Part shown: in pieces, positions 6,806 to 38,115 of the stretch
Position numbering within the stretch: position 1 is the first letter of the stretch
How the letters are laid out: each line of letters opens with the position of its first letter
Origin: a virus
Reading direction: 5' to 3' (one strand)
DNA: 41,893 nucleotides
Virus record (IMG/VR): IMGVR_UViG_3300042923_000364
Span: 1 to 41,893 of that record
Translations under genes and position numbers: made by a program
Notes under the pieces: generated by a model
Told to the model about the DNA's origin: nothing
The model's database searches: none
The model's input: only the letters and a program-made list of their open reading frames with translations

Positions 6806-7150
6806 TTACTTGCCGACTGGAGCTACGATAATGCAGGTTGCTATTGTGGTTCCTTCACGAAGCATGAAGCCATCTAAGCCGATGTTACTCATCATGACCG
6901 TGACCTCAGTAACCAGAGGGGCATCCGTTTGATTGACTATAAAGTTAGAAATGAGTCTCATCGGGCTTTTCATCATTTCTTCTGAAAGGTTGAAGAGAGC
7001 TGCACCTCCTACCGGAATCTCAATTGTTTGTCCGGTTTTGATCTCTTTCACTCGGGAATCCAAGCGGTCTGGCGCTACCAGGAATCCTGCTGTTGCCTTC
7101 AGCTCTACTGCTGATATAAGATTTTTTGCGGGAGCTTTTGCTGCTGCCAA
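6806..7150 (-). CDS. Small beta-rich protein of unknown function, first gene behind a phage promoter
   Basis: 114 residues. It starts with TTG at 7150, seven bases after a near-perfect AAAGGAGGTGA. The protein is beta-strand-rich. Its C-terminal third (LVTEVTVMMSNIGLDGFMLR, then TTIATCIIVAPV) has the rhythm of the end of trimeric dUTPases, where a GD-IAQ-V---PV strand follows the motif-3 loop. The dUTPase catalytic motifs are not visible, so this is at most a fold suggestion. It is the first gene after a phage promoter and a 5' hairpin, with the best ribosome site in the genome, so it is expected to be strongly expressed, perhaps as a stoichiometric DNA- or protein-binding factor. Confidence 0.8.
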   Translation of the reverse strand: MAAAKAPAKNLISAVELKATAGFLVAPDRLDSRVKEIKTGQTIEIPVGGAALFNLSEEMMKSPMRLISNFIVNQTDAPLVTEVTVMMSNIGLDGFMLREGTTIATCIIVAPVGK

Positions 7151-7210: not shown

Positions 7211-7233
7211 TTTCCGAATCGTGGCACAATCAA
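7211..7233 (-). promoter_or_regulatory. Phage RNA polymerase promoter P1
   Basis: The minus strand carries the core ATTGTGCCACGA followed by TTCGGAAAGA; initiation is likely at the GG near 7215. The core is shared exactly with four other intergenic or gene-edge sites (13373, 17597, 17622, 38093), all in the same orientation. The CAC-then-GG layout resembles the T7 CACTATAGG half. It would drive the middle (replication) genes from 7150 on. Confidence 0.85.
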
Positions 7234-7786: not shown

Positions 7787-10396
7787 TTAAGCAAACATAT
7801 AAGGACTCTCAAGAACAACCTTAAGATCTAACTTACCTTTCTTTGGAATTGTCGGTAAAGTAACCTTCGACTGATCGATGAAGACCTCCATATCTTGCGC
7901 AAAGGTCTCTAGTACATCGTGTTCAGTGTACATCTTATGAAACGTATACCGAACAGTCGAGAACATCTCTTGAGCTTGAGCCACGGGTGATCCATAGGAA
8001 TCATGTATCATTGCGAAGTGCTTAATACCTCTATCGTAAGCCTCCAGAATAGTCATCTGCAGGTGTGAGGCATCTAGCGAATGTATAAAGTTAGGAGCGA
8101 TCCCGTTAACTTGTGCGTGTTTGTCTATGTTTCCACTCGGTTTTGTAGTGTATAATCTCCTAAAGCCTCCCCCGAAGCGTAACCGGAAGGTCTCATACGC
8201 AGGTTCCATATAAGCCTGTTGTATCGGGAGGCCCATAGGAGTAACCCAGGTAACTACGTTGCCCTCCTTGCAGACCAATCGGGCCATTTTCTGGAGCCAT
8301 GCCATACCCTCAACAGCTTTAACTACCACTTCCTGAATGACGTTCCAAATAAGTTTAGCTAAGTAAGCAGCAGCTTGTACGGGTTTTATGAACATTTCTC
8401 CTTTCTTCTCTTTACGTGCCTTGAGAATAATATCTTCTAAAAGCTGCTGCTTAAATCCATACTCCTTAGAGCCATACGCAAAGGTCATTACGCACCTTTT
8501 AGTTACCTTCCGGGTGATACCGTAGAGAAGCCATTGTTGCGCTAATGATTTAGTCCCCAGCTTTAAGAAAGTTTCGCCCTCTTCGTTCTCTGACTCCTCA
8601 TCTATGCTCCCTTTCTTAGCGTCCTGCTCCACGATAACCTGGACTTTCTCAGCTACTGCCCTGTAGATATCATTAGGAGTATCTTGAGGAAGTAGATTAA
8701 CAGCTTGTCCCCCTACAGAATCCCTTAAGATAGCGCTGAAGTGCTGAAGGCCTGAACATGTACCATCGAAGGCCACAACGATTCCGGTTTTAAACCCTTT
8801 AGGAGTCCTATAGGTTTTCTCATGTTTCTTCCATTTGGCCCACTCGAAGCAAAACCCTAGAAACTGTATCGGGCAATCATCCAAGGTAGTCCACCAGAGG
8901 TACCCTAGAGGATCTTCAGCGCTCCTTAGGATATGCTCTTCATTGTCTCGTATCCACTGCTTCCGGGCCGGGAAAGACACCTTATCGACTCCAGCAAGAT
9001 TAGCCCCGTGGACCATCATCCATTCTATATCCTGCATGGTCTGGCACTCCGGTACGTTAGCGAACAATAATAAGCCTTTATTGAGGTCATCCCCTTGAGG
9101 ATTGAAAGCAGGAACCGGATAAACCCGACCTCTGAAGTCTAAATTATGTGGGAAGTATATCTGATCAAAGTCTGCAAATTCCTCAGCTAATCCAATGTGA
9201 GAGAGCGCCCGGAGTACCTTTGATTTACGTTCGTGCTCATGCTTGTGATACTCTACAAGGTCCTTCTTGTGTTTAATTAACTCCTCAGGCTCAAAATCTC
9301 CTGTAAGTTCAGGCGGTCTGGGTGTTTCATGGAAAAGAGGAATTCCTGCAAGGCCTCCTCCCCGGTTTTGAATAGCCTTAACTACCGCTAAGACCTCCCG
9401 ATTGATCACCCAAGGTGTCTCCTGGCACTGGTTAACAGCCCCCCGGACTTGCCCCAGGTCTAGCTGGGAAAGCTTCTCTAAGTACTCTTTGTTATAGATA
9501 TTGCTGCCTTCACTTTTAGTATAGATGAGTGCTTCTGTCCTTAATAAAGGTTGTCGACCTCTAAGGTCTCCATAGTATGCCCCTTCAAAGACGCTTGTCC
9601 ATGGAGCAGGTGGAATCACTGTAGGGCATGTTTTGAAGGCCTTGAGGATGCTCTTGGCTTCATTAGTGTTCCAGGCTTCTAACAGCCATTGCGTAGGTCG
9701 TATCTCAAGGATAGAATCCCCTTTTATACTTGTCCCATGTGAAAGCTCAAAGTATCCTGAGCCTGCCACAGTGAGTTCTAAAAGTTTAACCCCAAGAGCA
9801 GCCCTTGCTACCGTGTCCCAGCAACATTTTTTATGGCCTTCATTCCGCATGGTGTTGTCCAGGAAATACGTCTTATAGTGGCGGTCTTTACGCTTCTTGA
9901 GACCATCAAGGACCTTTCCACAGGTGGGATTATCTAAGCTATTGAGGAAAGAGTCTGCCATTGCTTCTTCCTGTATTTCCTTACCTACAATATTAGCCAA
10001 GGCTGAAAGAGTTGAGGCGTTGTAAGTCACATATACTTGCATAGCACTATTGAGAAGATTGCTAAAAGGTATAAACGTCAGAATGTCTAGGAGCTTGTCC
10101 CTCTCATCGGCATATAACTCAACAAGCTCTTTTACGATATCTGTGTAATTGGCCTTAGCTCCTGCTTTAGGGGCCACCAAGGAATCCACTAGCTTTTCAA
10201 TGTTCCCTCTAACTACACTGAATTGTCTATTGATTAAGCGCTGCCCCAGTGAAAGACTTGCTGCGTCACCTTCTTCTTTGTTAACTCTGAACATTTTCTC
10301 TTGACGATCTGAAGCACAATTTTTGTACTTCTTTTCGAGCTCTAATTGTCTTTCATAAAGATCCCCGTAGATTACCTTAAGTTCCTCTTTAGTCAT
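7787..10396 (-). CDS. 1: Single-subunit DNA-dependent RNA polymerase (T7 gene 1)
   Basis: 869 residues (T7: 883). It transcribes middle and late genes from phage promoters. Motif A FDGTCSGLQHFSAIL has the catalytic D544; motif B is RKVTKRCVMTFAYGS with the lysine and tyrosine of the active site; motif C MIHDSYGS has D799. The segment aligned with the T7 promoter-specificity loop (QQAYMEPAYETFRLRF onward) differs from T7, as expected from the different promoter core found here. ATG 10396 has GAGGAGAGAAAGGA upstream. It is the only recognisable polymerase for the phage promoters and lies downstream of the operator-controlled host promoter at 12539-12567, which would make it the key target of repression in a lysogen. 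Confidence 0.98.
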   Translation of the reverse strand: MTKEELKVIYGDLYERQLELEKKYKNCASDRQEKMFRVNKEEGDAASLSLGQRLINRQFSVVRGNIEKLVDSLVAPKAGAKANYTDIVKELVELYADERDKLLDILTFIPFSNLLNSAMQVYVTYNASTLSALANIVGKEIQEEAMADSFLNSLDNPTCGKVLDGLKKRKDRHYKTYFLDNTMRNEGHKKCCWDTVARAALGVKLLELTVAGSGYFELSHGTSIKGDSILEIRPTQWLLEAWNTNEAKSILKAFKTCPTVIPPAPWTSVFEGAYYGDLRGRQPLLRTEALIYTKSEGSNIYNKEYLEKLSQLDLGQVRGAVNQCQETPWVINREVLAVVKAIQNRGGGLAGIPLFHETPRPPELTGDFEPEELIKHKKDLVEYHKHEHERKSKVLRALSHIGLAEEFADFDQIYFPHNLDFRGRVYPVPAFNPQGDDLNKGLLLFANVPECQTMQDIEWMMVHGANLAGVDKVSFPARKQWIRDNEEHILRSAEDPLGYLWWTTLDDCPIQFLGFCFEWAKWKKHEKTYRTPKGFKTGIVVAFDGTCSGLQHFSAILRDSVGGQAVNLLPQDTPNDIYRAVAEKVQVIVEQDAKKGSIDEESENEEGETFLKLGTKSLAQQWLLYGITRKVTKRCVMTFAYGSKEYGFKQQLLEDIILKARKEKKGEMFIKPVQAAAYLAKLIWNVIQEVVVKAVEGMAWLQKMARLVCKEGNVVTWVTPMGLPIQQAYMEPAYETFRLRFGGGFRRLYTTKPSGNIDKHAQVNGIAPNFIHSLDASHLQMTILEAYDRGIKHFAMIHDSYGSPVAQAQEMFSTVRYTFHKMYTEHDVLETFAQDMEVFIDQSKVTLPTIPKKGKLDLKVVLESPYMFA

Positions 10397-10700
10397 TGTC
10401 CTTTCTCTCCTCTCGTTTATAGGCCATCTGTCGGGCCTTATATAGGCGGGATTGTTAAACTGCTAAAAGGCAATAAGAAACCAGCCCCTATGTCACCTTT
10501 TTTCTTGGAAGGGCTGGCGGTAGGTTCCAGGAGTTTCTCAAGCTATTCTTTTATTAGGAGAATAAAGCTCTTAATAACTAATGATCCTGTTCAACAGTAT
10601 TTTGATGTGAAGCCTGAAAAGCACTTAATTTTAATAACTTTCCCAAGGCCATAATAATCTTAATAGTTAGACAATTCTGTCGAATAAAGTCGAGGAAAAC
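10397..10700 (-). other. 304-bp leader of the RNA polymerase gene
   Basis: No gene seen. It is AT-rich with a hairpin (10481-10517) and the polymerase ribosome site. A TATATA box near 10441-10446 has no convincing -35 partner, so I do not call a separate host promoter. Confidence 0.5.
10481..10517 (-). terminator. Hairpin in the polymerase leader, possible attenuator
   Basis: In the minus-strand transcript CCAGCCC pairs with GGGCTGG around a 23-base loop and is followed by TTTCTTATT. The stem is short and the T-run interrupted, so it may be a weak terminator or an RNA-processing site upstream of RNA polymerase. Confidence 0.35.
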
Positions 10701-11051
10701 CTATTGTTTCCCCGATGGGTACTCCTTGCGGAATTCTAAGAGTTCCTTCAGTACCTTCTCTTGCATCCGCCTGTAGCTATTGCTGTTCTTAATCACTGCT
10801 GCTTGATTTACACCAGGTTTGCCTATTTGGCGCTTCCAGTGAAGACCCATATAGGTGTGATAGGCTACCTTACTTTCCAGGCAGTCTGAGTAGACATCAG
10901 GATGTTTTCTGATCCCTGCGATACCTCCATAGGTGACCTCAAGGTTCTTCATGATCGTCTTGTGTTTCTCAGCTAGATGTTTGTACATGCTCTTAGGTGT
11001 CATCCTGCAGTCACTCCAATAAGTTGATTTGATTCCTTCTAAGGGAACCAC
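10701..11051 (-). CDS. Hypothetical basic protein
   Basis: 116 residues from GTG 11051 (GAGGGTCGC upstream); an ATG at 11000 with GGAGTGA would give 99 residues. The sequence is rich in K, R, H and Y with predicted helices and might be a nucleic-acid-binding protein, but no family is recognised. It is the last gene before RNA polymerase in the operon that starts with the antirepressor. Confidence 0.65.
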   Translation of the reverse strand: MVPLEGIKSTYWSDCRMTPKSMYKHLAEKHKTIMKNLEVTYGGIAGIRKHPDVYSDCLESKVAYHTYMGLHWKRQIGKPGVNQAAVIKNSNSYRRMQEKVLKELLEFRKEYPSGKQ

Positions 11052-11055
11052 GCGA

Positions 11056-11076
11056 CCCTCAAGGAGATCTTAAGGG
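11056..11076 (-). promoter_or_regulatory. Intergenic RNA hairpin
   Basis: In the transcript CCCTTAAG pairs with CTTGAGGG (one T-G pair) around a five-base loop, between two early genes. A similar hairpin lies at 11350-11381. T7 early mRNAs are cut by RNase III at intergenic hairpins, which these resemble in place. Confidence 0.45.
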
Positions 11077-11127
11077 CCGAACTGCTTACCTTAGGTTGAG
11101 CTGGAGGCGCTTATCTAATACACAGAC

Positions 11128-11319
11128 TTAAAGTAAACACGTTAAGTACTCCATAGGACTCCAAAAGAAGGAGCCTTTCAGATTATTGGTAACTGTGGTT
11201 AAATCCCCGGCTTTCATCATAGGACATTTAACAGAGCGTAATCTGAGGGCTGACTTGCCTCCATCCTCAAGAGTAACAAAGTGCATCTTTCCGAACATTA
11301 ACACATACATTAGTTTCAC
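11128..11319 (-). CDS. Hypothetical small protein
   Basis: 63 residues starting MKLMYVLMFGKMHFVTLEDG. It is not recognised. The start is supported by AAGGAGTGA eight bases upstream of ATG 11319. It has a hydrophobic N terminus and a basic middle (ALRLRSVKCPMMKAGD). It lies in the early operon between two hairpins. Confidence 0.6.
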   Translation of the reverse strand: MKLMYVLMFGKMHFVTLEDGGKSALRLRSVKCPMMKAGDLTTVTNNLKGSFFWSPMEYLTCLL

Positions 11320-11349
11320 TCCTTATTTAGTTGAGGTAGCCTCACCAGA

Positions 11350-11381
11350 TAGCCCTCAAGGATCTTCTCACTTAAGGGCTA
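11350..11381 (-). promoter_or_regulatory. Intergenic RNA hairpin
   Basis: TAGCCCTTAAG pairs with CTTGAGGGCTA over 11 positions (one T-G) around a 10-base loop. No T-run follows, so it is more likely a processing or stability element than a terminator. Confidence 0.5.
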
Positions 11382-11397
11382 GATTGCTAAGGTTAAC

Positions 11398-11745
11398 CTA
11401 GTGGTTTCCTGGAGACCATCCTGAAAGCGTCAAGACCTCTAGCTCTTTGTTCCACTGCTGAAGTTCTATTTTGATCTGATGGACTTTACTGAAGCCACAC
11501 CCTGAGATTGCAAAGTGATAAGCTGGTAAGGTAGCACGCTTGCTATATACTTGAGAACCGAATAGTTCCTTAGAGGATTTTCCAAGGTGACTGTCAGAAG
11601 GCCAGAGAGCTTCTAAGCCGTTACCATCGTCTAAATACACTTGGTATCTTGCAGTACTCATGGAATCTTTAGGTTGACTTAGGGTTATTATGTAGGCCCT
11701 CTTTGCTGCCTTAATTTGTTCTTGTTGATCTGTGCCTCTTCTCAT
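11398..11745 (-). CDS. Hypothetical early protein
   Basis: 115 residues, not recognised. ATG 11745 overlaps the antirepressor stop by four bases (ATGA), so the two are translationally coupled. The N terminus is basic (MRRGTDQQEQIKAAKRAY); the rest is mixed, with no cysteine pairs or membrane segment. Its tight coupling to the antirepressor suggests a function in the same early programme. Confidence 0.7.
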   Translation of the reverse strand: MRRGTDQQEQIKAAKRAYIITLSQPKDSMSTARYQVYLDDGNGLEALWPSDSHLGKSSKELFGSQVYSKRATLPAYHFAISGCGFSKVHQIKIELQQWNKELEVLTLSGWSPGNH

Positions 11746-12488
11746 GATTGCTTGTCCTCCTTATTGATCCAGTTACGCTCCTGAGCTACTTTAGTAATCC
11801 AATGGAATCCCTCGTGTGTCAGTCGAGTGTGAACGAACTTAGGCATAATCTTAACTTTGAAGTACCCAAGACCCTCGTAAGCTTTGGTAGGAAGCCATTC
11901 GCCCTTCTTGTTCTTTTGGAGCATCCTGGACTCTGCCATGTAGGCAATGAAGACAGAAGAAGGTAATCCTATAATCTTTGCAACGTCAGTAAAAGAGTGA
12001 GTACTTGAGGAATCCATGAAGGCATCATGTAGTTCAATCTTAGGAGCAGCTTCCTCCAGGAGTCTCTTTTGTCTGTCAATAGTTTCCTTAGCGATTAGTA
12101 AGGCTTTAGCTAGGAAGACCTCAGGATCGTCTAGGAGGTCTTGAGAGGTCTTAGGAGTTAAGTACATGCCATTCTTACGGATGCTTGGGAGGACCTCAGA
12201 GGCTATCCAGTTTTGAAATGAGAGTGCTGAAGGTTTGTCTGAACGCATTACCAGTTTGTAAAGACCAGCTTCGTTAATGAAATTGACTGATTTAACTCCT
12301 CGAATTGTCTGTAACGAATAAAGACATTTCATTTCACCAGGTAAACGTAAGAGGGCATTGGTAACGGCTGAAGGCTTAATCCCAAGGACTTCACAGACAT
12401 CCTTAGCAACGAACCAGGGATCACCTTCAATTTGAATAGTTCTAACTGAATGATTTTGATAATTGAATACGTTTTGAAGCTTGTCCAT
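11742..12488 (-). CDS. BRO/ANT-type antirepressor
   Basis: 248 residues from ATG 12488. AGGGAGAG lies six bases before it and too close to the ATG at 12494. The N-terminal Bro-N domain is clear: FNYQNHSVRTIQIEGDPWFV, AKDVCEVLGI, then INEAGLYKLVMRSDKP and FQNWIASEVLPSIRKNG. The C-terminal half (about residues 140-248: HSFTDVAKIIGL, TKAYEGLGYFKVK, LTHEGFHWI) matches the KilAC/ANT domain of phage antirepressors. Such proteins relieve repression of lytic genes. It is transcribed divergently from the ribbon-helix-helix gene at 12643 and is the first gene of the operon leading to RNA polymerase. Confidence 0.9.
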   Translation of the reverse strand: MDKLQNVFNYQNHSVRTIQIEGDPWFVAKDVCEVLGIKPSAVTNALLRLPGEMKCLYSLQTIRGVKSVNFINEAGLYKLVMRSDKPSALSFQNWIASEVLPSIRKNGMYLTPKTSQDLLDDPEVFLAKALLIAKETIDRQKRLLEEAAPKIELHDAFMDSSSTHSFTDVAKIIGLPSSVFIAYMAESRMLQKNKKGEWLPTKAYEGLGYFKVKIMPKFVHTRLTHEGFHWITKVAQERNWINKEDKQS

Positions 12489-12508
12489 TTCCATCTCTCC
12501 CTTTGTGG

Positions 12509-12534
12509 TTCTTTGTGGCTACATGTAGCCTTAG
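12509..12534. promoter_or_regulatory. Operator O1
   Basis: This is one of three 26-bp sites beginning TTCTTTGTG and continuing with a (A/C)(A/G)TGT(A/G)G half. O1 covers the start of the leftward (minus-strand) antirepressor transcript. Its second half reads CTACATGTAGCC, itself a dyad (GGCTACATGTAGCC). Confidence 0.75.
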
Positions 12535-12538
12535 ATAC

Positions 12539-12567
12539 ACAATAGCATATGTAGTTCTTTGTGTCAA
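12539..12567 (-). promoter_or_regulatory. Host sigma70-type promoter for the antirepressor-RNA polymerase operon
   Basis: On the minus strand TTGACA (12567-12562) and TATTGT (12544-12539) are separated by exactly 17 bases. The -35 box lies inside O2 and the start point falls in O1, so the promoter should be repressible. Confidence 0.75.
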
Positions 12568-12580
12568 CGTGTAGCTACAG
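12555..12580. promoter_or_regulatory. Operator O2
   Basis: Second copy of the 26-bp site (TTCTTTGTG, then ACGTGTAGCTACAG). It starts 46 bp from O1 and covers the -35 box of the leftward promoter. Confidence 0.75.
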
Positions 12581-12582
12581 TA

Positions 12583-12611
12583 TTTACAAATAAATTTCTT
12601 TGTGGTATCAT
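12583..12611 (+). promoter_or_regulatory. Host sigma70-type promoter for the RHH repressor gene
   Basis: TTTACA (12583-12588), a 17-base spacer and TATCAT (12606-12611). The -10 box lies inside O3, pointing to autoregulation. Confidence 0.7.
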
Positions 12612-12621
12612 GTGGTAACAG
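12596..12621. promoter_or_regulatory. Operator O3
   Basis: Third copy of the 26-bp site (TTCTTTGTGG, then TCATGTGGTAACAG), 41 bp after O2. It covers the -10 box of the plus-strand promoter. Confidence 0.75.
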
Positions 12622-12642
12622 AAGACATGAGGAGGAATAAGC

Positions 12643-12822
12643 ATGGAGTTACCAAGTACACCTGCTCAATTCAAAAGAAGAGAATATGATGATGTAATAC
12701 GCTTACGACTTTATAAGGATGACAAGACCTTATTTTATTCCATTTGTGATGATAATTCCGTCAATCCCTCAGAGCTACTCAGGAAATACATTAAGCAGTA
12801 CATTAGTGAAAATCAGAAATAA
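12643..12822 (+). CDS. Arc/MetJ-type ribbon-helix-helix repressor candidate
   Basis: The only plus-strand gene. ATG 12643 follows GAGGAGG at seven bases; it encodes 59 residues. The layout fits the ribbon-helix-helix fold: an N-terminal strand with alternating residues (DDVIRLRLY), helix A (KDDKTLFYSICDD), a turn, and helix B beginning NPSELLRKYIKQY. Arc and Mnt of phage P22 are of this size and class, and P22 also pairs such a repressor with an antirepressor. The three operators lie directly upstream and a strong terminator directly downstream. That it is the lysogeny repressor is inferred from size, fold and divergent arrangement. Confidence 0.75.
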   Translation: MELPSTPAQFKRREYDDVIRLRLYKDDKTLFYSICDDNSVNPSELLRKYIKQYISENQK

Positions 12823-12829
12823 TCATAGA

Positions 12830-12888
12830 AACACAAAAGACCTCCTCAAGAGAATCTAGTGAAATCTCTTGAGGAGGTCTTTTGTGTT
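12830..12888. terminator. Bidirectional intrinsic terminator
   Basis: A perfect 24-bp stem (12830-12853 with 12865-12888) around an 11-base loop, with A-rich and T-rich flanks on both sides (CACAAAAGA and TCTTTTGTG). It separates the convergent repressor gene and the exported-protein gene and should stop transcription from both sides. Confidence 0.9.
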
Positions 12889-12894
12889 ATTTAG

Positions 12895-13389
12895 TTATTG
12901 CTTCAAATGTCGCTGAATATCATAGCCCAGTACACGCGCTATTAATCGATAGCCTGGACTTTCTGGGTTACTGATATTAACGAACTCTTTATCATCATCA
13001 ATGGCAGTGACAGCAAGGGAATCATACAAATGGCTATTCGTTCTTTTTAATCCCATCTTCTTGTCAACTATCTTGATCTCATACCAACTATCTAATATAC
13101 CATTTAAAGACCCTGAGAAACCTATCAGTCTATGCTTAAATGTTGCTGTGTATTCAGAAGGTATGCTCTTGGCCTTATCGTCCCAATTGGAAGAGAACGA
13201 AGACGTATTCATATAAATACAGACATCACCATAGTCAGAAATTAAATACCACTCACCTCGTTGGGTAGGTTCCTGAGGTTCCGCTGCTTGTCCAACTCCA
13301 GGCCACCATAAGAACATCATAAGAGTTATAACCATCATTACCAGAAGGACACCTATGGAATAATGTTGTTGTCTTCCGAATCGTGGCAC
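12895..13389 (-). CDS. Predicted exported protein, lysogenic-conversion candidate (surface-adhesin-E-like)
   Basis: 164 residues from GTG 13389, which is seven bases after AGGAGGG; an ATG at 13410 is in frame but only about five bases from the predicted host transcript start. The N terminus is a signal peptide: basic (PRFGRQQ), hydrophobic core (IGVLLVMMVITLMMFLWW), then PGVGQA before AEP. The mature part starts GEWYLISDYGDVCIYMN and resembles small secreted proteins annotated as surface-adhesin E-like. It has no place in a T7 lytic programme and has its own host-type promoter and terminator, like a moron gene. Oddly, phage promoter P2 lies inside the first codons (encoding VPRFGR). Confidence 0.75.
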   Translation of the reverse strand: MPRFGRQQHYSIGVLLVMMVITLMMFLWWPGVGQAAEPQEPTQRGEWYLISDYGDVCIYMNTSSFSSNWDDKAKSIPSEYTATFKHRLIGFSGSLNGILDSWYEIKIVDKKMGLKRTNSHLYDSLAVTAIDDDKEFVNISNPESPGYRLIARVLGYDIQRHLKQ

Positions 13390-13395
13390 AATCAA
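13373..13395 (-). promoter_or_regulatory. Phage RNA polymerase promoter P2, inside the exported-protein gene start
   Basis: Same core ATTGTGCCACGA with TTCGGAAGA after it; initiation is likely near 13377. A transcript from here would lack the GTG start at 13389. By position (left of the early genes) it could be the equivalent of T7 phi-OL. Confidence 0.8.
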
Positions 13396-13421
13396 ACCCT
13401 CCTCTTTCATCTCGGCGTTAC

Positions 13422-13451
13422 TTTATACTTATCTAATATGATCTTTTGTAA
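13422..13451 (-). promoter_or_regulatory. Possible host promoter for the exported-protein gene
   Basis: Minus strand TTACAA, 18 bases, TATAAA (13427-13422). The -10 box is good and the -35 weak. The start point would be near 13415. Confidence 0.45.
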
Positions 13452-13597
13452 CACTTTCGATGCATCCTGAAGGAAATCCTTGTCAGTCCTTGGAGTAACT
13501 CAAGGAGATCTTAGGAAGACCTTGAGAGGATCTTATTACCTTATCTTAGTACCTGGTCCTAAATAAACACAGATAGATCACAAGAACATCTGAAGAC

Positions 13598-13619
13598 TGT
13601 CAAGGGAAACTACTTGACA
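13598..13619. repeat. 22-bp dyad repeat, copy 1
   Basis: TGTCAAG, eight bases (GGAAACTA), CTTGACA. It is identical to 13796-13817. TTGACA occurs in both directions, but no -10 box lies at the right distance, so an operator or protein-binding site is more likely than a promoter. Confidence 0.85.
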
Positions 13620-13670
13620 CCTCGCATGAAATAAGCCTTTCTACCCTCAAGATTCCCTCAATATCACCTC

Positions 13671-13701
13671 AACTTCCAATAACCAAAAATTATCGGAAGT
13701 T
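13671..13701. repeat. Inverted repeat
   Basis: AACTTCCAATAA and TTATCGGAAGTT pair over 12 positions with one mismatch around a seven-base loop. There is no T-run, so its function is unclear. Confidence 0.7.
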
Positions 13702-13795
13702 AGAAACCTAGTGTTTATGCGGGTTCGTGGCAGGTCACCTCAAGATCAACCCTCAGAACAGTCAAAATGTCCATACCTGATGTACAAACCTGAGG

Positions 13796-13817
13796 TGTCA
13801 AGGGAAACTACTTGACA
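13796..13817. repeat. 22-bp dyad repeat, copy 2
   Basis: Exact second copy of 13598-13619, 198 bp further on. With its flanks (GAGGTGTCAAG) it can also pair with the right arm of copy 1 (CTTGACACCTC). Confidence 0.85.
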
Positions 13818-13890
13818 GGTACCCACGGGGGAATCGAGGAACGCAACGAAGTGAAGTGTAGGTCTCGAAAGTTTTGAGAAATTTTCTTAG

Positions 13891-13903
13891 GTTAGCGGTA
13901 GGG
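13891..13903 (+). repeat. 13-bp inverted repeat flanking the recombinase gene, left half
   Basis: GTTAGCGGTAGGG. Its reverse complement is at 15607-15619, just before the recombinase start. Confidence 0.8.
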
Positions 13904-13913
13904 GGATCTTCAG

Positions 13914-13957
13914 CGTACCAAAACGCACATAGGTCCTGGTGTATTGGGTTTGGTACG
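13914..13957. other. Candidate attP of the serine recombinase
   Basis: A 44-bp imperfect dyad with perfect 9-bp outer arms CGTACCAAA and TTTGGTACG and scattered matches inside, centred on a CC pair at 13935-13936. Large serine recombinases use attP sites of about 50 bp with such imperfect symmetry and a non-palindromic central dinucleotide, usually next to their gene. This one ends four bases before the recombinase stop codon. Most known attP sites sit at the 5' side, so the 3' location is a caveat. Confidence 0.45.
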
Positions 13958-13961
13958 TTTG

Positions 13962-15596
13962 TTAATGAGAGGCTGTAAAATTATAATGAATATCAATTTG
14001 TTTATCTTCAGTTACTTCTATTCTATTAATGAGCTTCACCAGAGCTGCCTGAGGAATCTTACGGAACTCCAAGAGATCTACAACAGTCTGCAGGAGCTCC
14101 CTATCTACTCCACTTTCGGACTCTTCAGGACTCCTTGAGGTTTGCAGTTGTGTACGCCTTTGAGAAAGAGAGTCGCGCTCCTGCTGGTAGTCTTTAGAAA
14201 GATCCATGAAGTCCTGCTCTGTGAGGATGCCCTTAAGTTTATCTTCATAGAGCGCTTTTATGGTCCTCTTTATTTCACTGAGGCGAGACTCTACCTTGTC
14301 GATCTCTTTGCCTGCATGATCAACTTGTCTCTTCTTCCGCTTACCTGCAAGCTGCTGTGCTTCTGTTATAAGACCTCCAGTGTTCACTTCCTCTGCGAGA
14401 CCCTTAAGACTCCCTAGAACATACTGTTCGAGCTCTCCTTCAGAGTATGTGTGTCTAGTACAGCTCCCGTGGCGTTTGTATCCTGAGCATATCAATACGA
14501 AACCGCTTCTAGGGGTCATTGCGAAGGTCATCCGAGACCCGCAGTCTTTGCAGAAGACAATACCTCCCAGGAGATGTGAGACCCTATTGTTGCTGTTCTC
14601 AGGTTTGGTGTAAGATTTGAGCTTGAGGAGTTGCTGGACAGTCTCAAACAACTGAGCAGATATAATAGGCTCATGGGTATTTCTCACGACAACCCAAGAC
14701 TCCTTGGGAATAGATCGGGCTTTCTGTACTTTATAGTTGATCCGGCTGTTCTTATGTTGTGCTACGTGTCCCGCATAGGTGGGATTAGAAAGAATAACCT
14801 TGACGGTTTCTGCGTTCCACTGCTCAGATATTCGTTGCTTACGTGTCCTTAGAATCTGCGCTTTGTACATCGTAGGAGTAAGGATTCCTTCCTTATTGAG
14901 TCTACGTGCAATAGCAGATAGATTAGGCTTCAGACTATACTCCTCATAAATCCTACGCACTATAGGGGCAGTCTCAGGGTCTATGACAAGGAGGTTCTTA
15001 TCGTATGAAGCTTTAAGGTATCCATAAGGAGCCACTGAGCCTATAAACTTTCCTTTATTCCTCTTACTGTTTATTGCAGTCCTGACATTCTTTGAGAGTT
15101 CCCTGGAGTAATAGTCATTCATGACCGCTTTGAAGGGAGTCATATCGTTATTACTATTGTTCTTCTCAAAGGTGTCTATACCATCATTAAGAGCTATGTA
15201 GCGTATATTTCGTTGAGGAAAGTATCTCTCAATGTAGTGGCCTGTGTCGATATAATCACGACCTAGCCTGGAGAGATTCTTAGTAATAACGAGATTGACT
15301 CTACCCTCTTCTATGGCCTTGAGGAGTCTTTTGAAAGCTGGTCGATTAAAGTTTGTCCCTGTGTAACCATCGTCAATGTAAATGTCCTCAATGTTCCAAC
15401 CTTGCTCTAAGACGTAACGTGTAAGAAAGTCTTTTTGATTTGCAATACTTTCAGACTCAGCTTCATTTTCATCAGAGTCTTCCTTTGAAAGCCTCAAGTA
15501 AAGCCCTGCATTAAATATAGTGTGTCCAAGATCTAATTTTAGGTAAGCATCCTTTTCACGAAGAGCGCCCATACTGCCTCCTTCTGCTCTTCTCAT
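13962..15596 (-). CDS. Large serine recombinase (phage integrase)
   Basis: 544 residues. It has an N-terminal resolvase domain with YLRLSKED (catalytic Ser37), SIANQKDFL, DDGYTGTNFNRPAF and NLSRLGRDYIDTGHYIE. The recombinase domain (about 180-310: GKFIGSVAPYGY, LSNPTYAGHVAQ) follows, then a zinc ribbon (CKDC and later CSGY...C) and a long coiled coil (about 410-490). This is the complete architecture of integrases of temperate Firmicutes phages. It would integrate the circular genome at a host attB by a DSB mechanism through Ser-DNA links. Start ATG 15596 has GGGAG at eight bases; ATG 15572 with AAGGAGG is a good alternative. T7-like phages normally lack one. Confidence 0.95.
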   Translation of the reverse strand: MRRAEGGSMGALREKDAYLKLDLGHTIFNAGLYLRLSKEDSDENEAESESIANQKDFLTRYVLEQGWNIEDIYIDDGYTGTNFNRPAFKRLLKAIEEGRVNLVITKNLSRLGRDYIDTGHYIERYFPQRNIRYIALNDGIDTFEKNNSNNDMTPFKAVMNDYYSRELSKNVRTAINSKRNKGKFIGSVAPYGYLKASYDKNLLVIDPETAPIVRRIYEEYSLKPNLSAIARRLNKEGILTPTMYKAQILRTRKQRISEQWNAETVKVILSNPTYAGHVAQHKNSRINYKVQKARSIPKESWVVVRNTHEPIISAQLFETVQQLLKLKSYTKPENSNNRVSHLLGGIVFCKDCGSRMTFAMTPRSGFVLICSGYKRHGSCTRHTYSEGELEQYVLGSLKGLAEEVNTGGLITEAQQLAGKRKKRQVDHAGKEIDKVESRLSEIKRTIKALYEDKLKGILTEQDFMDLSKDYQQERDSLSQRRTQLQTSRSPEESESGVDRELLQTVVDLLEFRKIPQAALVKLINRIEVTEDKQIDIHYNFTASH

Positions 15597-15606
15597 AAAG
15601 ATAACT

Positions 15607-15619
15607 CCCTACCGCTAAC
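15607..15619 (-). repeat. 13-bp inverted repeat flanking the recombinase gene, right half
   Basis: Reverse complement of 13891-13903. It lies 11 bp upstream of the first recombinase ATG, where it could be an operator. Confidence 0.8.
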
Positions 15620-15662
15620 ATTATTGTAATGCAGAGATAGGGAGCTTGTAAATCTATGAGTG

Positions 15663-17596: not shown

Positions 17597-17619
17597 TTTC
17601 CGGTTCGTGGCACAATCAC
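17597..17619 (-). promoter_or_regulatory. Phage RNA polymerase promoter P3
   Basis: Core ATTGTGCCACGA followed by ACCGGAAAGA; start near 17601. It lies 25 bp downstream of P4 in tandem. Confidence 0.85.
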
Positions 17620-17621: not shown

Positions 17622-17644
17622 TTCTCTTATCGTGGCACAATCAA
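17622..17644 (-). promoter_or_regulatory. Phage RNA polymerase promoter P4
   Basis: Core ATTGTGCCACGA followed by TAAGAGAAA, so the initiation region differs from the other four. It lies directly after the terminase stop. Confidence 0.75.
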
Positions 17645-17646: not shown

Positions 17647-19395
17647 TCAGCGCCCAGTGAAGAACCCTTGAATGATATTGTACTGCCCTGGGATTACCCG
17701 AGATTTACTGGAGGATACCTTAGGAGGGAGCGAAGGAATAAACAGGACTCCTCTGTCAGGGTCCATCCATTGTTCTAGGGCTTCCTCAAGTTTCTCCTGG
17801 AGGCCTACATCGGCAGACCTTGCCATAGCTTCAACCCAAAACGCTATAGCACCACAGAGGGCATCCAAGCGGTCATCGTGACCTAAAGATCCTTTGTCCT
17901 TACTGATACGAGTGAGCTGATAGAAGAGACTTCGCAGGTAATCCTTTTCATACATTTGGAAGTCCTCAATTATAACCTGAGGGTCTACAATAAGCCTGTG
18001 CTGTTGGAGGACAGGTTCTATAGTGTCTATGATCCTCTTCTCTTTCTGAGTGGAAGAGCGAACCTCTGAGATTGTACAAGGGTACAGCTCCCGGAAGACC
18101 GGAGTGAGAATCTTAGTAAACATTCCGTCCCCGAAGTTAGACTCACAGACTACATCAGTAACCCCATAGAACTTAGCTTTGAGAGCTAAGGCCCTCAGGA
18201 CTTCATCGGTATAGCCTTCCTTAAAACCACCGCAGGCCACCAAGAAGAGATAACCGTTCAGATACTTGACGATAGCATAAGCTGTTTCATCTTTTCCGCG
18301 ACCACTCGGGTCTATAAACATACACGCCCCAGAATAAGGAGCGATCTCTTTAGACCTCTCAAAGGGTCCGAAGAAGTAGTCGTTCTTAAGCGCCACACAA
18401 GGGACATCAAGAAGGCGTAACTCAGGGGTCTTACCCCAATGCCATTTGAGACTTGTTTCCTTTAGGTCCAAGTCAGCTACAATCAAGTCTGATACTTTCA
18501 GAGGGTACTTGTCGGCATCCGTGAGGTTGGTATTAAGGAGAAACTGGAGAGCGAAACCCGCCCTACCGTAGGAGAGTCTACGAGTTGCAATCTCTTCCAT
18601 GTTGAAGCGTGAAGGCTCTGTAGATTTCCCGGCCCACTTCTCAGGGTCTGCATCATATTTTGTAGCAATGAAAGGAGCGAGGTTTCCACCATAATCATTT
18701 CGTTCCTTAGCACTCTCAGGGTACAACAGAGGATAGATTACAGCTTTATACCCTCGCTTCTGGAGCTCATTATAGAGACTCATTTCATTTTGAGGAGTCC
18801 CCAAGTAAATGATTTGACCGCCAGGTTTTAAGATAGCATCGAACTCTCTGACAGCTTCCCCAAGTTGATCCCTTTGCTTCTGCGTGCCGGAATTATTAGG
18901 AACCTCTACGTCATCAGCTATGAGGATGTCTGCACGAGAGCCTGTAATCTGTCCGGTGATACCTACAGACTTAACACTAGGGGCAATATCAGGAACAGCT
19001 CCATGTACATCAAAGAGGTTCTGAGTGTCTCGCAGGCCTGCTGCCTTATCCTCAGAGGTTAACCTCAAGCACTCCAAAAAGGGTACAGTATTAATGATCT
19101 TTTTAATGAAGTTAGCATTAGCGTCTGCACGTTCTTTAGATGCCGATACAATTTCAACCTTTAGCAGGGGATTCTTCCAGAGCCTCCAGACCACATAAGC
19201 ACACGTAATGAAACTCTTAGCTACCCCTCGGAAACCCTCAAGGATAAACCGAGAACAAGGAGGATGCTGTAGGGTCTTAGCCATATCATTTTGAATAGGC
19301 GTAGGATTAGGCAGACCGATCATCTTCCAGATAATAAAAAGGAGAACCCTGAAATCCTTCAAGGCTCTCTCAATCTGTTCTTTAGTCCACTGCAC
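17647..19395 (-). CDS. 19: Terminase large subunit (T7 gene 19)
   Basis: 582 residues (T7: 586), a close full-length match. The ATPase has Walker A GFRGVAKSF (K60) and the conserved VSASKERADANANFIK and GITGQITGSRADILIADDVE (Walker B). The nuclease has FIDPSGRGKDETAYA (D362), ESNFGDGMF and DDRLDALCGAIAF. It packages concatemeric DNA into the prohead and cuts it. It follows the small subunit with a one-base overlap (19395). Confidence 0.98.
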   Translation of the reverse strand: MQWTKEQIERALKDFRVLLFIIWKMIGLPNPTPIQNDMAKTLQHPPCSRFILEGFRGVAKSFITCAYVVWRLWKNPLLKVEIVSASKERADANANFIKKIINTVPFLECLRLTSEDKAAGLRDTQNLFDVHGAVPDIAPSVKSVGITGQITGSRADILIADDVEVPNNSGTQKQRDQLGEAVREFDAILKPGGQIIYLGTPQNEMSLYNELQKRGYKAVIYPLLYPESAKERNDYGGNLAPFIATKYDADPEKWAGKSTEPSRFNMEEIATRRLSYGRAGFALQFLLNTNLTDADKYPLKVSDLIVADLDLKETSLKWHWGKTPELRLLDVPCVALKNDYFFGPFERSKEIAPYSGACMFIDPSGRGKDETAYAIVKYLNGYLFLVACGGFKEGYTDEVLRALALKAKFYGVTDVVCESNFGDGMFTKILTPVFRELYPCTISEVRSSTQKEKRIIDTIEPVLQQHRLIVDPQVIIEDFQMYEKDYLRSLFYQLTRISKDKGSLGHDDRLDALCGAIAFWVEAMARSADVGLQEKLEEALEQWMDPDRGVLFIPSLPPKVSSSKSRVIPGQYNIIQGFFTGR

Positions 19396-19631
19396 TATTG
19401 GATCTCCGTAGCATCCTCATCGAAGTCCGGGATGTCCTCCATTTGATGTCTGATTTGAGTTACCCCAGGGGTTTCTGGAGTAGTAACCAGCTTGTTTTCC
19501 TTGAGGAACCTTCGGACAGCCGTGAGGAAGGCGGGACTTTTCCGTAACTCATCGTCCTTAAGACCTTCCTTGAGGACTTCGACTTCTAACTCAGCAATTT
19601 CATCTAATTTCTTTTCATCAATTTTAGCCAC
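19395..19631 (-). CDS. 18: Terminase small subunit (T7 gene 18)
   Basis: 78 residues (T7 gp18: 89). It is identified mainly by position immediately before and overlapping the large terminase. It is acidic and helical at the N terminus (KKLDEIAELEVEVLKEGLKD) with the LRKSPAFLTAVRRFLKEN segment typical of these small DNA-recognition subunits and an acidic end. Confidence 0.88.
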   Translation of the reverse strand: MAKIDEKKLDEIAELEVEVLKEGLKDDELRKSPAFLTAVRRFLKENKLVTTPETPGVTQIRHQMEDIPDFDEDATEIQ

Positions 19632-19658
19632 TGTTGTTGACCTAATTTCTCCGTATGT

Positions 19659-20267
19659 TTAACCTAACATTGCGAGTGCATCATTACACTCATTGATCAT
19701 CCGAGTCCTAAGGCCCTCTACAATATCCTCAGGGTTACTTGTGGAAATCCAATCACTCTTATTTCGAGAGAGTGAGCGCACCTCATAGATTGCCTGGATA
19801 AACTCTTGAGTTGAGGGATGAGGCTTTAAATCATACGCCTCCACAATCAAGTCTACGATCCATTTCGGACCATAATGTACAGCAGCAGACCAGACAATCT
19901 GGTGCATAGGGTCCTCAGGCCATTTATCAGGACACCAGCCAGCGTCCCTCAGGTTCCCCATAGCAACATCAAAGTAATGTTCCTTCACATATTGCCATTG
20001 CCACCTTAAGAACTCCTCAGCGTCAACCTCAGCAGTCTTCTGCCAAGCCTCATCAAAAGAAGAACTCCCAGGTTCTCCAGAGTTAGCTAAGTATTCGGCA
20101 TTAGCGTAACCCTGCCCTAGGAGCCACCTTATGAAGTCTTGCGGAATCCCTGAAGCAGTAGCGAATTGATAGGCTCCATAGGAAGCCCCTCCGAGATCCC
20201 CAGGAGTGTGAGCTACACACCCAGGGTCTCCGTTAGATTCATATTTAGCGGATAGATCACCTAGCAC
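19659..20267 (-). CDS. Endolysin, muramidase/chitosanase-like fold
   Basis: 202 residues from GTG 20267 (AAGGTGG about ten bases upstream, overlapping the end of the preceding gene). The N terminus LSAKYESNGDPGCVAHTPGD then LGGASYGAYQFA matches a family of peptidoglycan hydrolases also found as C-terminal domains of VgrG effectors. The Glu of YES (E10) is the likely catalytic acid. There is no signal peptide, so it needs a holin. T7 uses its gene 3.5 amidase plus separate lysis genes; here the 3.5 homologue looks inactive and this enzyme would supply the lytic activity. Confidence 0.85.
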   Translation of the reverse strand: MLGDLSAKYESNGDPGCVAHTPGDLGGASYGAYQFATASGIPQDFIRWLLGQGYANAEYLANSGEPGSSSFDEAWQKTAEVDAEEFLRWQWQYVKEHYFDVAMGNLRDAGWCPDKWPEDPMHQIVWSAAVHYGPKWIVDLIVEAYDLKPHPSTQEFIQAIYEVRSLSRNKSDWISTSNPEDIVEGLRTRMINECNDALAMLG

Positions 20268-20443
20268 TCTTCAGACACCACCTTAATAAGTTGCTCCGGT
20301 CGCTGCTTGTAACCATTAGTGAAGAAAGCAAAACAAGGTGTGAAACGAGCTATCTTTGCTGTGCTAAACTCTCGGTAGTTAAAATTGATGTAGACTACCT
20401 TATCGCCTTCCTTAAGGTCTCTCCCTAAGAAATCTTTAGGCAT
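20261..20443 (-). CDS. Hypothetical small protein, SH3-like
   Basis: 60 residues, MPKDFLGRDLKEGDKVVYIN then a basic half. The RDLKEGDKVVYI opening and short beta pattern suggest a small SH3-like barrel. It overlaps its neighbours on both sides (one base with the holin-like gene, seven bases with the endolysin), so it is embedded in the lysis cassette. Confidence 0.65.
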   Translation of the reverse strand: MPKDFLGRDLKEGDKVVYINFNYREFSTAKIARFTPCFAFFTNGYKQRPEQLIKVVSEEC

Positions 20444-20700
20444 TAATTCTTACCTCCTAATTGTTGAGTATTTACTGGAGCTTTGATACTTGAGGGACCT
20501 TGAGGTTGCGTAGGGTATCCTCCTTGGTTCCACTTACTAGCGATACCAAAATTAATACCGTAGTAAGCAGCCACGATCCCATAAATAGACAGCAGATCCG
20601 TAATAACAAAGGTAGTCTTGAGGAGACCATTAGAAAGCTGCTCAGCGATCCCGAGACTAATAAAAAGGATTGTAATGATCCGCATTTCTTTAGTAACCAT
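20443..20700 (-). CDS. Membrane protein, second holin or antiholin candidate
   Basis: 85 residues with two hydrophobic spans (about 8-24, MRIITILFISLGIAEQL; and 31-54, FVITDLLSIYGIVAAYYGIN) and a hydrophilic, Pro/Gln-rich tail. It directly follows the 17.5 holin homologue (one-base overlap) and precedes the endolysin. Two-span topology fits class II holins or an accessory timing protein. I do not recognise a T7 counterpart. Confidence 0.65.
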   Translation of the reverse strand: MVTKEMRIITILFISLGIAEQLSNGLLKTTFVITDLLSIYGIVAAYYGINFGIASKWNQGGYPTQPQGPSSIKAPVNTQQLGGKN

Positions 20701-20885
20701 TATTTACCTTCTGTTCTAAAATGTCTTACAATCTTATAGACTAGCCAGCCTGTTTGCACCACAGTATATAAAAGGGTAGCAAAAAGGACCCACTCAGAAA
20801 GAGAGAGTCCTAAGATTGACCCTGTGGATACTGTGACAGGTGGGGCCATCTTCAGAAGTTCAGTTTTAACCTCTTGATTTTCCAT
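20700..20885 (-). CDS. 17.5: Holin (T7 gene 17.5)
   Basis: 61 residues (T7: 67). LLKMAPPVTV and LGLSLSEWVLFATLLYTVVQTG align with T7 gp17.5 LIKAAPIVGT and FGLSLNEWFYVAAIAYTVVQIG. It has one clear transmembrane helix and a basic C terminus. It makes the membrane lesion that frees the endolysin. The position after the tail fibre is as in T7. ATG 20885 has AAGGAGG eight bases upstream. Confidence 0.9.
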   Translation of the reverse strand: MENQEVKTELLKMAPPVTVSTGSILGLSLSEWVLFATLLYTVVQTGWLVYKIVRHFRTEGK

Positions 20886-20901
20886 TTAACCTCCTTATAC
20901 T

Positions 20902-23304: not shown

Positions 23305-23310
23305 TAATTA

Positions 23311-26300
23311 TTACCTCTTTCTTATTTTATTTGGAAGGTCTGATTCATCGACTAGGGTTTCTGTAAGTTTAACCATAGGAAGCCAATTCTGCAGCGGGAA
23401 GGTTCTAAAGACATCCCTGAGATCCCCTTTACTCACCTCAGGTCTATCCGTGACAGTCTGTTTTACTGCCTTGTAACCTGTGTAAGCTGTGTCAGCTATG
23501 GATGTCCCTGCACGTACAGCCGGGAATTGAGAAATGAAATCCCCTGCCATTTGTCCGAAAGATCTCTCCTGAGGTCTCTTAGAGAATTGGCTAGAGCGAT
23601 CTACAGTAGTCCTAAAGGATTGACTTCCCGTGGTAGCCTCATAGATGTCTTGCCCAAAACTCAAGCCTGTTCCTAAGACGCTTCTTAAGAGAGCAGCTCT
23701 AGCTAGATTCTGAGGGCTTAATCGGTCCTCAAGGTACTCCTGCCGTTTCCCTTCATCATCTGAGAACCTCGCCCAGGCTTTAGCGTGAGTTAGTCCCGCA
23801 TATACCATCGTATTGGTAGCCATAGAAAGCATTAAGGAAACCACATCATCAATCTCATGATGAGTCATAATCCTGGCAAGCTGTCCATTCATAACCTTCA
23901 TAGAGAAGTCTTTAAATTGAAACATCATCTTAGTGAAGTTGTTAGCACTGGATAATAGGTTGTGGTTTCCAATGGTGTTCTGCTGGAGAGCCCTCAGAGA
24001 CTGATTATCAATGATGGTCTTCCACTTGTTATATGTCCCAGGGTCTTCCTTTTGCCACCTATAAAGGTTTAACTGCGTGACAATCCCTTCAGAATCCCTT
24101 TGGGCATACTTATTGATTGCCACCTTGACTTCCTCGGGGCCTACTTTGTTTAAACCCGCAGCATTCATCTTTGGGTCACTGAATGGATTCCTAAGAGGTC
24201 CTACAACTTTCCCCGCTGCCCAATCAAAAGTGTCTTGCATAGTGTCTTTACGGATTCCACGGAGCATGTTGTCAGTGAGCTTAGGGAGCATGGATACTGA
24301 AGACACAACGCGACTCGCAAAGTTGACACCTGTCTGAACCTTATCCATGTACTTCAAGAGATCTCCTTTAGTACTTGCCTCTTGCCACTGTCTACTCTGC
24401 CAATCAGTCTTCCATACAGACCTTTCAAGGGTAGCTCCAAAGACCTGCCTCTCGGCTTCTTTAATCAATAGTGCTCCCTGGTCTCCAACCCTTAAAGCCC
24501 TCATAAAATTATCTACTGAGGGAATCAAATGGGTAACAGCTTTGAAGCCTACATAAGCAATAGCGCCAGAGAGTTCTCCTATTTGGTTTGCTCCCATCAT
24601 GCTCCCGTTTTGAGCATAACTGATACCCTTAAGAAGATTTACAAATGCCCCATATTGACCCTTAACATCTCTTTCCCTTCGCAGGCCTCGAATCTTAGTG
24701 AGACCCTCATCGAAAGCCTCAAGATTTCTTTGGACTTCCACAGGGTTAATATGTTTGAATTTCTCAGCCTTAGCGAGGTCACTAGCAAATAAGGCCCTCT
24801 TCTCGGTGAGTTCGGCGGTATCCTTAGCGAAGTTCCTAAGAGCTGCTTCTCCAGCAAACCTATTGATATTCATAGGCACAATCCTATCCAAGTCATTAGA
24901 CCGCAGGTGGATGTCATAACTGAAAGGTTCTCCCCAAGGAGTCTCAAGAATCTTAGTGGTATCCATTGGGACTCTCTCCTGCAAAAAGTGAAGGGTCTCA
25001 CTCAGTTCATGCACAGACCCCTCTTTGAATATGTCCAAGTTTGACAGGTTTTGATCTCCAACACCAACGGCCCACTTACGGGCGCTCTCATTAACAGCAA
25101 CTTCGACTTCCTCAGGAGTTACTGAAGGTTTTTCAGGTTTGTCCGGGAGAGCTTTGGTCATACGTCCAGCAGCCTTGTCCCGCTTTAATTCCCATGCTTT
25201 CATATCTTTGTTATACTGGACGGTCTTCTCGTTAAGGAGCTTCTCTTCAATCTTGTCACGCTTAATAGCCTTCTGAGCGTAATTCTCAAGCCAGTTGATG
25301 CAGTCTTCCATTGTATTAAACTTATTTACAAAGGTCAGCCATTTGTCATCATCGACAGCTCTCCACATCTCATCATCAAGCGCCTTCCATTCTTTTGGTA
25401 AGAGATTTTTAGTACCTGCTCCGAACATCTCCGAGGATTTCTTAGCAATGTCGATCATAGAAGATCTTAAGACACTTAGGTTATGAGCTGCTTTAACGAC
25501 AGCAGGGTCCCATTCTTTTGTAAGAAGTCCTGCAGTATTATCCGTATAAGTCGCATTGTAACATTCCCTAACTTGCTTGTTGAAGTCCTGGAAACGTCCC
25601 GGAGATATAGGCCCTTGTTCTACTATGGTCTTCTGAAGGTAATCCATCCGGGTATCTAAGTATGCCCCCCAGTGCTGCTGGAGTTGTCTCATTATCCACT
25701 CTTTCTGTCTTTCGATAGGAGGCACACCATCCTTTCGAGGGCGCTGCCGAGGATCATGGAACAACTCTGCTGCCATCTCTTTTCCGTGTTTAGAGACAGA
25801 GTTACTTAAGATCCCATGTACTGTCCCGTAGAGCCTACTCGCTTCAGCTTTACGGCTAACCCAGTTAGCAGCTTGAGAAACAATATTACCTGCCCCCGGT
25901 TCGACATCCAGAATATGACTCATCAAGTTAGGATTTAGAACATTAGCAGCAGAGAATTTGATATTATCGTCCAGAGCTATCACTGATCCATCAGGAAGAG
26001 TACGGTAACCTTGAGTCTTCTCTACTTCATTCTGTAGGCTCCTCTTAACAAAGTCCCTTAGTTCCACATCAGACAGATCCGCTTTACCACCAAGTTTCTT
26101 GAAGGCTCCTGAGACACCCTTACGGAGTTCCGAGAGTACCTTGTCTTGTTGACCTCTCTCAATCCAATGCCCTAAGACTTCCTCCCAGCCTCCTCCAGGT
26201 ACAGACTTGACTGCATCCAACCAAGCACCTTTAGGCTTCTCAATGCGCTTCAGTACAGCATCACGAACAGCATTATAATGTTTTTCTCCCCAGGTTTCCT

Positions 26301-27750: not shown

Positions 27751-27769
27751 TGACTGCCTCCTTTCGTGT

Positions 27770-30593: not shown

Positions 30594-30596
30594 CTA

Positions 30597-33987: not shown

Positions 33988-34023
33988 ACACTTGAGTCTC
34001 CTTTCGTTCTGAGATTAAAAGGT

Positions 34024-34077: not shown

Positions 34078-34086
34078 AAGTTCATC

Positions 34087-37671: not shown

Positions 37672-37690
37672 GTAAACTGTACTCCTTTCT

Positions 37691-38092: not shown

Positions 38093-38115
38093 TTTCCGAA
38101 TCGTGGCACAATTAG
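38093..38115 (-). promoter_or_regulatory. Phage RNA polymerase promoter P5 (structural genes)
   Basis: Core ATTGTGCCACGA then TTCGGAAAGGAG. It overlaps the last codon of the acetyltransferase-like gene and should drive the virion genes to the terminator at 34024. Confidence 0.85.

Follow-up and report, generated by a model that had tools for sequence, protein, structure and literature searches.

The virus contig analysed here, IMG/VR virus record IMGVR_UViG_3300042923_000364 at positions 1-41,893 (the whole stretch, called the window below), is very probably the genome of a temperate T7-like phage whose host most likely belongs to the Negativicutes and whose switch would be an early promoter held by a small ribbon-helix-helix (RHH) protein. 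Temperate life is demonstrated in relatives by their integrated copies, and we infer it for the window phage. Temperate T7-like phages are already established, and the window is a variant with a serine recombinase and a switch that joins an RHH gene to a Bro/KilAC antirepressor gene. Two open questions make such phages of interest, namely whether T7-like phages come from temperate ancestors and how a lytic cascade driven by the phage's own RNA polymerase (RNAP) is held off in a lysogen. Both are directly testable in the clade described below, because it includes prophages that lie in complete-size chromosomes and in a named strain of Pectinatus frisingensis, its candidate switch is compact, and modules exchanged among its members can be compared. 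Moreover, the recombinase and its attachment site could serve as an integration tool for Negativicutes.

Results

The contig ends share an overlap of 127 bp, the first 37 bp of which lie outside the 15-bp tandem repeats found there, and thus the genome is circular and essentially complete. All phage genes are on the minus strand, with the sole exception of a 59-residue open reading frame (ORF) at 12643-12822 (plus strand), and they follow the T7-like order on that one strand: RNAP, replication, head, tail, internal virion proteins, terminase. Profiles confirm the T7 genes 2.5, 3, 4, 5, 6, 8-12, 14, 16, 17 and 19 and also identify an internal virion protein in the place of gp13, a holin and a ligase; the structural genes recognised by profile are those of the portal, scaffold, capsid, tail tube, nozzle, tail fibre and large terminase. 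A preliminary description of this DNA had reported a T7 gene set together with a lysogeny module, and all the parts that it named lie where it had placed them, gp15 and gp18 being assigned by position and by relatives only.

Integration module and integrated relatives

The integration module is made up of the following features.

13962..15596, minus strand: large serine recombinase (integrase) with Resolvase, Recombinase and Zn-ribbon domains (PHROG integrase, 4e-104)
13914..13957: candidate phage attachment site (attP), an imperfect palindrome 4 bases beyond the recombinase stop codon
15603..15652, minus strand: the recombinase's own host-type promoter, TTTACA-18-TACAAT at 15652-15623, flanked by a motif in inverted repeat

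The recombinase contains the catalytic YxRLS motif, and relatives that are 52-55% identical to it occur in three elements, L005 (IMG/VR), G310 (in a Negativicutes chromosome) and G384 (IMGVR_UViG_3300033434_000010). All three have the same attP architecture, which is proven in G310 and G384 by integrated copies. G384, a 41.4-kb contig holding a T7-like prophage with a 52% identical serine recombinase, starts in the 5' half of the host gene ykuD (L,D-transpeptidase), whose 3' half forms its other end. Between these halves come, in order, the genes of an exported protein, of a Cro-like repressor (encoded on the opposite strand) and of RNAP, then the whole T7 order down to the terminase and the serine recombinase, which is exactly the arrangement that a split of the window at 13914-13957 predicts. 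In G310, the recombinase (53% identical) is at the edge of a 10-kb element that lacks T7 genes and likewise lies within ykuD; another ykuD-type gene in the same genome runs uninterrupted through the site. The attP sites of the window, of L005 and of G310 (reconstructed from the integrated copy) align in one 46-bp register, with CC at 6-7 and GG at 40-41 of the 46 bases, and the G384 site is similar, its arms being slightly longer.

Relatives were found by a terminase scan of IMG/VR, a terminase-alignment scan of GTDB species genomes and a recombinase-alignment scan, while RNAP and the recombinase, each used as a single-protein query against IMG/VR, gave no matches. Two IMG/VR relatives are close by terminase. 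L005 (83%) shares the serine recombinase (53%), the RHH protein (90%) and the gene order; in L006/G385 (85%; RNAP 65%), a tyrosine integrase, an excisionase-like helix-turn-helix (HTH) protein and a Cro-like HTH protein replace the serine recombinase and the RHH protein. Of the seven loci that the GTDB scan yielded, four belong to Negativicutes, among them those of Pectinatus frisingensis, Phascolarctobacterium and Veillonella, and 8 of 381 Negativicutes genomes gave a strong match; since the class-wide searches covered Negativicutes only, a restriction to this class does not follow from them.

Complete-size contigs carry two of these relatives: in G313 (a chromosome contig of 4.36 Mb) 16-bp direct repeats surround about 42.0 kb with a T7-like set that is 52% (RNAP), 63% (DNA polymerase) and 57% (capsid) identical to the window, and in G072 (3.53 Mb) a T7-like prophage of about 40.3 kb lies between 23-bp direct repeats. 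The Pectinatus prophage is on two contigs that both end inside the nozzle gene, G349 is a prophage remnant, and attachment repeats were looked for at the Veillonella prophage and not found, with no clear-cut ones at the prophages of G097 and Pectinatus. The remaining new recombinase relatives in IMG/VR have no T7 hallmark genes in their flanks, and the gut T7-like contig MT835557 has no integrase between terminase and RNAP. An absence of integrated copies in related hosts had been named beforehand as a refutation of the preliminary description; T7-like relatives do lie in Negativicutes chromosomes, and G384 is split at the place that had been predicted, so the description was not refuted by this test.

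Inverted copies of the motif TTAGCGGTAGG stand on either side of the recombinase promoter (window 15603-15652), and one more copy is found at 13887-13905 beside the P' arm of attP. An equivalent motif was seen in L005 (4230-4285, 5940-5960), G310 and G384. It varies between elements and is matched within each, much as the site of a co-evolving binding protein might.

Candidate switch region

The features of the candidate switch are as follows.

12643..12822, plus strand: 59-residue RHH protein, candidate prophage repressor (RHH_9, 4.8e-5, barely past the family cutoff)
11742..12494, minus strand: Bro-N and KilAC antirepressor of 250 residues, leading the early operon (Bro-N 1.5e-21; ANT 3.5e-15; PHROG anti-repressor Ant 4e-58)
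12539..12567, minus strand: host-type early promoter TTGACA-17-TATTGT, into BRO and on towards RNAP (consensus scoring)
12583..12611, plus strand: host-type promoter TTTACA-17-TATCAT, into the RHH gene
12504-12529, 12550-12575 and 12591-12616: candidate operator, three 26-bp direct repeats that overlap both promoters
12833..12886: long hairpin, perfect-looking, in the gap where the RHH and 12895 genes converge, read from the sequence (a similar one in L005 at 6820-6870)

The RHH and Bro genes are divergent, with the host-type promoters in between, and the early operon has BRO first and RNAP last. Profile matches bear out the serine recombinase, RHH protein and BRO antirepressor of the preliminary description. 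Promoter-like sites in the switch region are overall at chance level (18 against 17.2), and only two sites on the coding strand of the whole genome score at least 10/12: the early promoter and the promoter before the recombinase. The operator-covered host promoter that had been described as reading into the antirepressor and then RNAP is therefore one of the two top sites, and it lies among the three repeats. The accompanying claim that all other promoters need the phage polymerase does not hold, because the recombinase promoter is of the host type. The 9-mer CACAAAGAA occurs three times within 148 bases, which was equalled in 0 of 200 shuffles; the spacing of the repeats is 46 and 41 bases.

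Besides its counterpart in L005, the RHH protein has a homologue in prophage G097 (50% over 36 residues), and PHROG 876, a transcriptional repressor family, matches it at 4e-4. A PDB search with the 59-residue protein returned three matches only, all weak, to the RHH proteins RelB, DinJ and protein 56B; neither Mnt nor Arc was matched. The hairpin downstream of the RHH gene is likely a two-way terminator.

The layout recurs in relatives. G097 keeps the order seen in the window, with an RHH gene on the opposite strand followed by Bro/KilAC (49%) and RNAP (53%), so that a second prophage with the order RHH-BRO-RNAP supports the temperate T7-like interpretation given earlier. Three copies of GTTCCCACAA, at intervals of 44 and 38 bases, overlap the G097 promoter TTGACA-17-TACTAT. 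Pectinatus shows the same layout, with a 51-residue RHH-like protein and its own repeat GGGAACACAAACA in two copies, as does Veillonella, with two copies of a 23-base repeat and a small divergent gene without clear family match. In L006 and G384 a Cro-like gene stands in the repressor slot, together with TTGACA promoters and with repeats that are not above chance by the shuffle measure. Because a Cro-like HTH protein fills this slot in both, the same role is suggested for the RHH protein; judged from the layout and from these proteins, it would be the repressor of the early promoter.

RNA polymerase gene, upstream hairpin and phage promoters

The early operon leads towards the following features.

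7787..10396, minus strand: T7-type single-subunit RNA polymerase (gp1; PF00940, E=3e-102)
10464..10517, minus strand: terminator-like hairpin with T tracts behind it, immediately upstream of the RNAP gene, supported by its recurrence in relatives
L006 18455-18510, L177 2535-2595 and L265 3880-3975: the pre-RNAP hairpin elsewhere, seen also upstream of RNAP in G313 and Pectinatus
7219..7231, minus strand: phage-RNAP promoter-like word GATTGTGCCACGA
13381..13393, minus strand: phage-RNAP promoter-like word GATTGTGCCACGA
17605-17617 and 17630-17642, minus strand: two phage-RNAP promoter-like words (L006 has two at the same place)
38101..38113, minus strand: phage-RNAP promoter-like word AATTGTGCCACGA, upstream of the head genes

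Six of the seven genomes looked at have the pre-RNAP hairpin (the window, L006, G097, G313, Pectinatus and G384, not G072). The folding energy of the window's hairpin is no better than that of shuffles, and the case for it is this recurrence. It suggests that RNAP needs read-through or antitermination: early transcripts would have to read through the hairpin, which stands between the early operon and RNAP. The promoter-like word has 6 matches at no more than 2 mismatches, against 1.15 expected.

The hairpin is often trailed by TTTCTTTT and by ACCTTTT-like tracts. In Veillonella sp. CHU740 (L088 15418-17938), the prophage RNAP is split into two frames, by decay or by sequencing error.

Proposed switch

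As in the relatives, the serine recombinase would open the circle at attP and join it to a host site, giving a prophage that reads attL, exported protein, repressor, early operon, RNAP, replication, head, tail, terminase, recombinase, attR. The RHH protein, which the lysogen would express from the protein's own promoter, would bind the three repeats and block the single host-type early promoter; the genes behind phage promoters would then be silent, because a blocked early promoter means no phage RNAP. Upon induction the early promoter would be freed, Bro/KilAC, encoded first in the operon, would probably reinforce this, and transcripts that pass the pre-RNAP hairpin would start the T7-type cascade. 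The recombinase would be expressed separately, from its own host-type promoter.

Discussion

Several points weigh against the reading of the window as a temperate phage with an RHH-held early promoter. The attP palindrome is weak when taken alone (13 of 23 pairs, a score reached at 55 of 41,848 positions), although the site proposed in the preliminary description is backed by the register that it shares with L005 and G310 and by the similar site of G384. The att core is TGGG or TGGGG in L005, G310 and G384 and differs in the window, whose target is therefore probably a site other than ykuD. No excision factor was identified. The AlphaFold model of the RHH protein was discarded for its low confidence (predicted local distance difference test 66). 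A shared operator sequence was rejected, since a matrix of the G097 repeats misses those of the window, and the layout alone is common to the two. Direct readthrough from the early operon into RNAP is made less simple by the hairpin that separates the two. Finally, the prophage search proposed earlier brought up relatives but no integrated copy of the exact window phage, which has no named host; window DNA from 18000-37999, compared with the 381 Negativicutes genomes, found prophages and host transglycosylase genes, with no near-identical copy and no convincing CRISPR spacer.

The likeness to P22 immI (mnt, arc, ant) bears directly on the role of the RHH protein. In both, an RHH gene is divergent from an antirepressor-led operon, with repeats or operators over the promoter. 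The layout part of the P22-like Arc/Ant switch proposed earlier thus stands, but the divergent RHH gene resembles mnt more than arc. P22 immI is a secondary immunity region whose RHH proteins control only ant, the early lytic operons being under another repressor. By analogy, the window phage might be temperate with the RHH protein as a secondary regulator of the antirepressor, like P22 Mnt or Arc, and with lysogeny held otherwise, for example by the pre-RNAP hairpin or by a host factor. The presence of that hairpin in six of seven genomes would fit such an arrangement, as would an operon with BRO first and RNAP last. We nevertheless consider it unlikely, since no other repressor-like gene was found in the window and relatives without BRO retain a small repressor in the same divergent place. 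Unlike in P22 immI, the window's promoter also leads towards the phage RNAP.

A loss of function is very unlikely. The window phage would in that case descend from a temperate phage and now be effectively lytic, its module present and non-functional. Its genome was indeed recovered as a free circle and not as a prophage, decay is seen within the clade (G349, Veillonella), and stable lysogens were not obtained with LUZ100, a T7-like phage with integrase and regulator genes (PMC10134795). On the other hand, the recombinase, RHH and Bro genes are intact open frames, the promoters and repeats are intact as well, and the RHH protein is 90% conserved in L005.

It is still less probable that the RHH gene encodes an antitoxin or a plasmid-type partition protein, with the recombinase as a passenger, and that neither has a role in lysogeny. 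RHH proteins of this size are often antitoxins, and the weak RelB matches point the same way; yet the gene has no adjacent toxin partner, stands alone and divergent with its own terminator and recurs in G097 and L005, and the prophage ends in G384, where a recombinase of this type lies, already contradict this reading. A chimeric assembly, joining a T7-like contig to an unrelated lysogeny module, would be conceivable from the metagenomic origin of the record, but we give it practically no credence, as L005 and G384, from other samples, have the same terminase-recombinase-att order.

Compared with the temperate T7-like phages already described, the window phage is distinct in its integration and regulatory genes. 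Integration is reported for Pasto and HTVC019P, and T7-like prophages are said to occur widely in Gram-negative bacteria and less often in Gram-positive ones (PMC10134795); LUZ100 and Pseudomonas prophages carry a tyrosine integrase and a MarR-like regulator (PMC10134795). Phages of this type (Pasto, HTVC019P, P-SSP7, LUZ100 and the Pseudomonas prophages) share with the window a T7-like order and an integrase and regulator near RNAP. In these phages, the regulator and the tyrosine integrase form one operon on the same strand just before RNAP, whereas the window lacks this pair upstream of RNAP and has a serine recombinase beyond attP, an RHH gene on the opposite strand and Bro/KilAC leading the early operon; their RNAPs also fall in a different clade.

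The recombinase itself is like the large serine recombinases of Gram-positive phages and integrative elements, with the same Resolvase, Recombinase and Zn-ribbon domains and an attP that is an imperfect palindrome of about 46-50 bp beside the gene. Unlike those, it rides on a T7-like genome, and its relatives target ykuD. The lytic T7-like Delftia phage IME-DE1 (Piedvirus) is among the nearest annotated phages by terminase (57%) and has the same chassis, but lysogeny genes are not annotated in it. None of the open papers searched brought together T7-like phages and a serine integrase, or T7-like phages and Negativicutes.

In the RNAP tree the eight sequences of the group, including the window, form one Negativicutes clade (100/100). 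The window is sister to G385, which has a tyrosine integrase, and G384, with a serine recombinase, groups with G072 and G313, which have tyrosine integrases. Since the two types are mixed in this tree, the recombinase type was probably swapped on more than one occasion, and both RHH and Cro-like repressors are found with either type. A broader interpretation is tenable, although we lean slightly away from it: this could be a Negativicutes lineage of truly temperate T7-like phages, in which the integrase (serine or tyrosine) and the repressor (RHH with antirepressor, or Cro-like) are plug-in modules on a fixed chassis, and in which RNAP expression might be controlled at two points, a single repressed host promoter and a conserved terminator just before the RNAP gene that an early product must overcome.

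Other features of the genome

The final gene before the integration module is the large terminase gene.

17647..19395, minus strand: large terminase, gp19 (PHROG terminase, 6e-108)

Inserted DNA of about 0.8 kb splits this gene in each of two other loci, L002 34442-36963 (gut contig MT835557) and L090 10001-12491 (a contig binned as Pseudobutyrivibrio); the L002 insertion holds a 156-residue ORF that looks homing endonuclease-like by eye.

In three phages, the interval from attP to the repressor encodes a protein of about 170-180 residues with a signal-like N-terminus (window 12895-13410; L265 670-1182; L177 183-728). The protein is possibly expressed in the lysogen, although in the window a phage-type promoter word lies at the start of its gene. 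The tail fibre (20902-23304) combines a T7-type N-terminus with a C-terminal GDSL lipase/acylhydrolase domain, and is perhaps a receptor-modifying esterase. The array of 15-bp tandem repeats (GGCGCTGACCTGAGT and variants) at 38-300 and 41800-41893, where the contig was cut open, sits between the ligase-side genes and the DNA polymerase.

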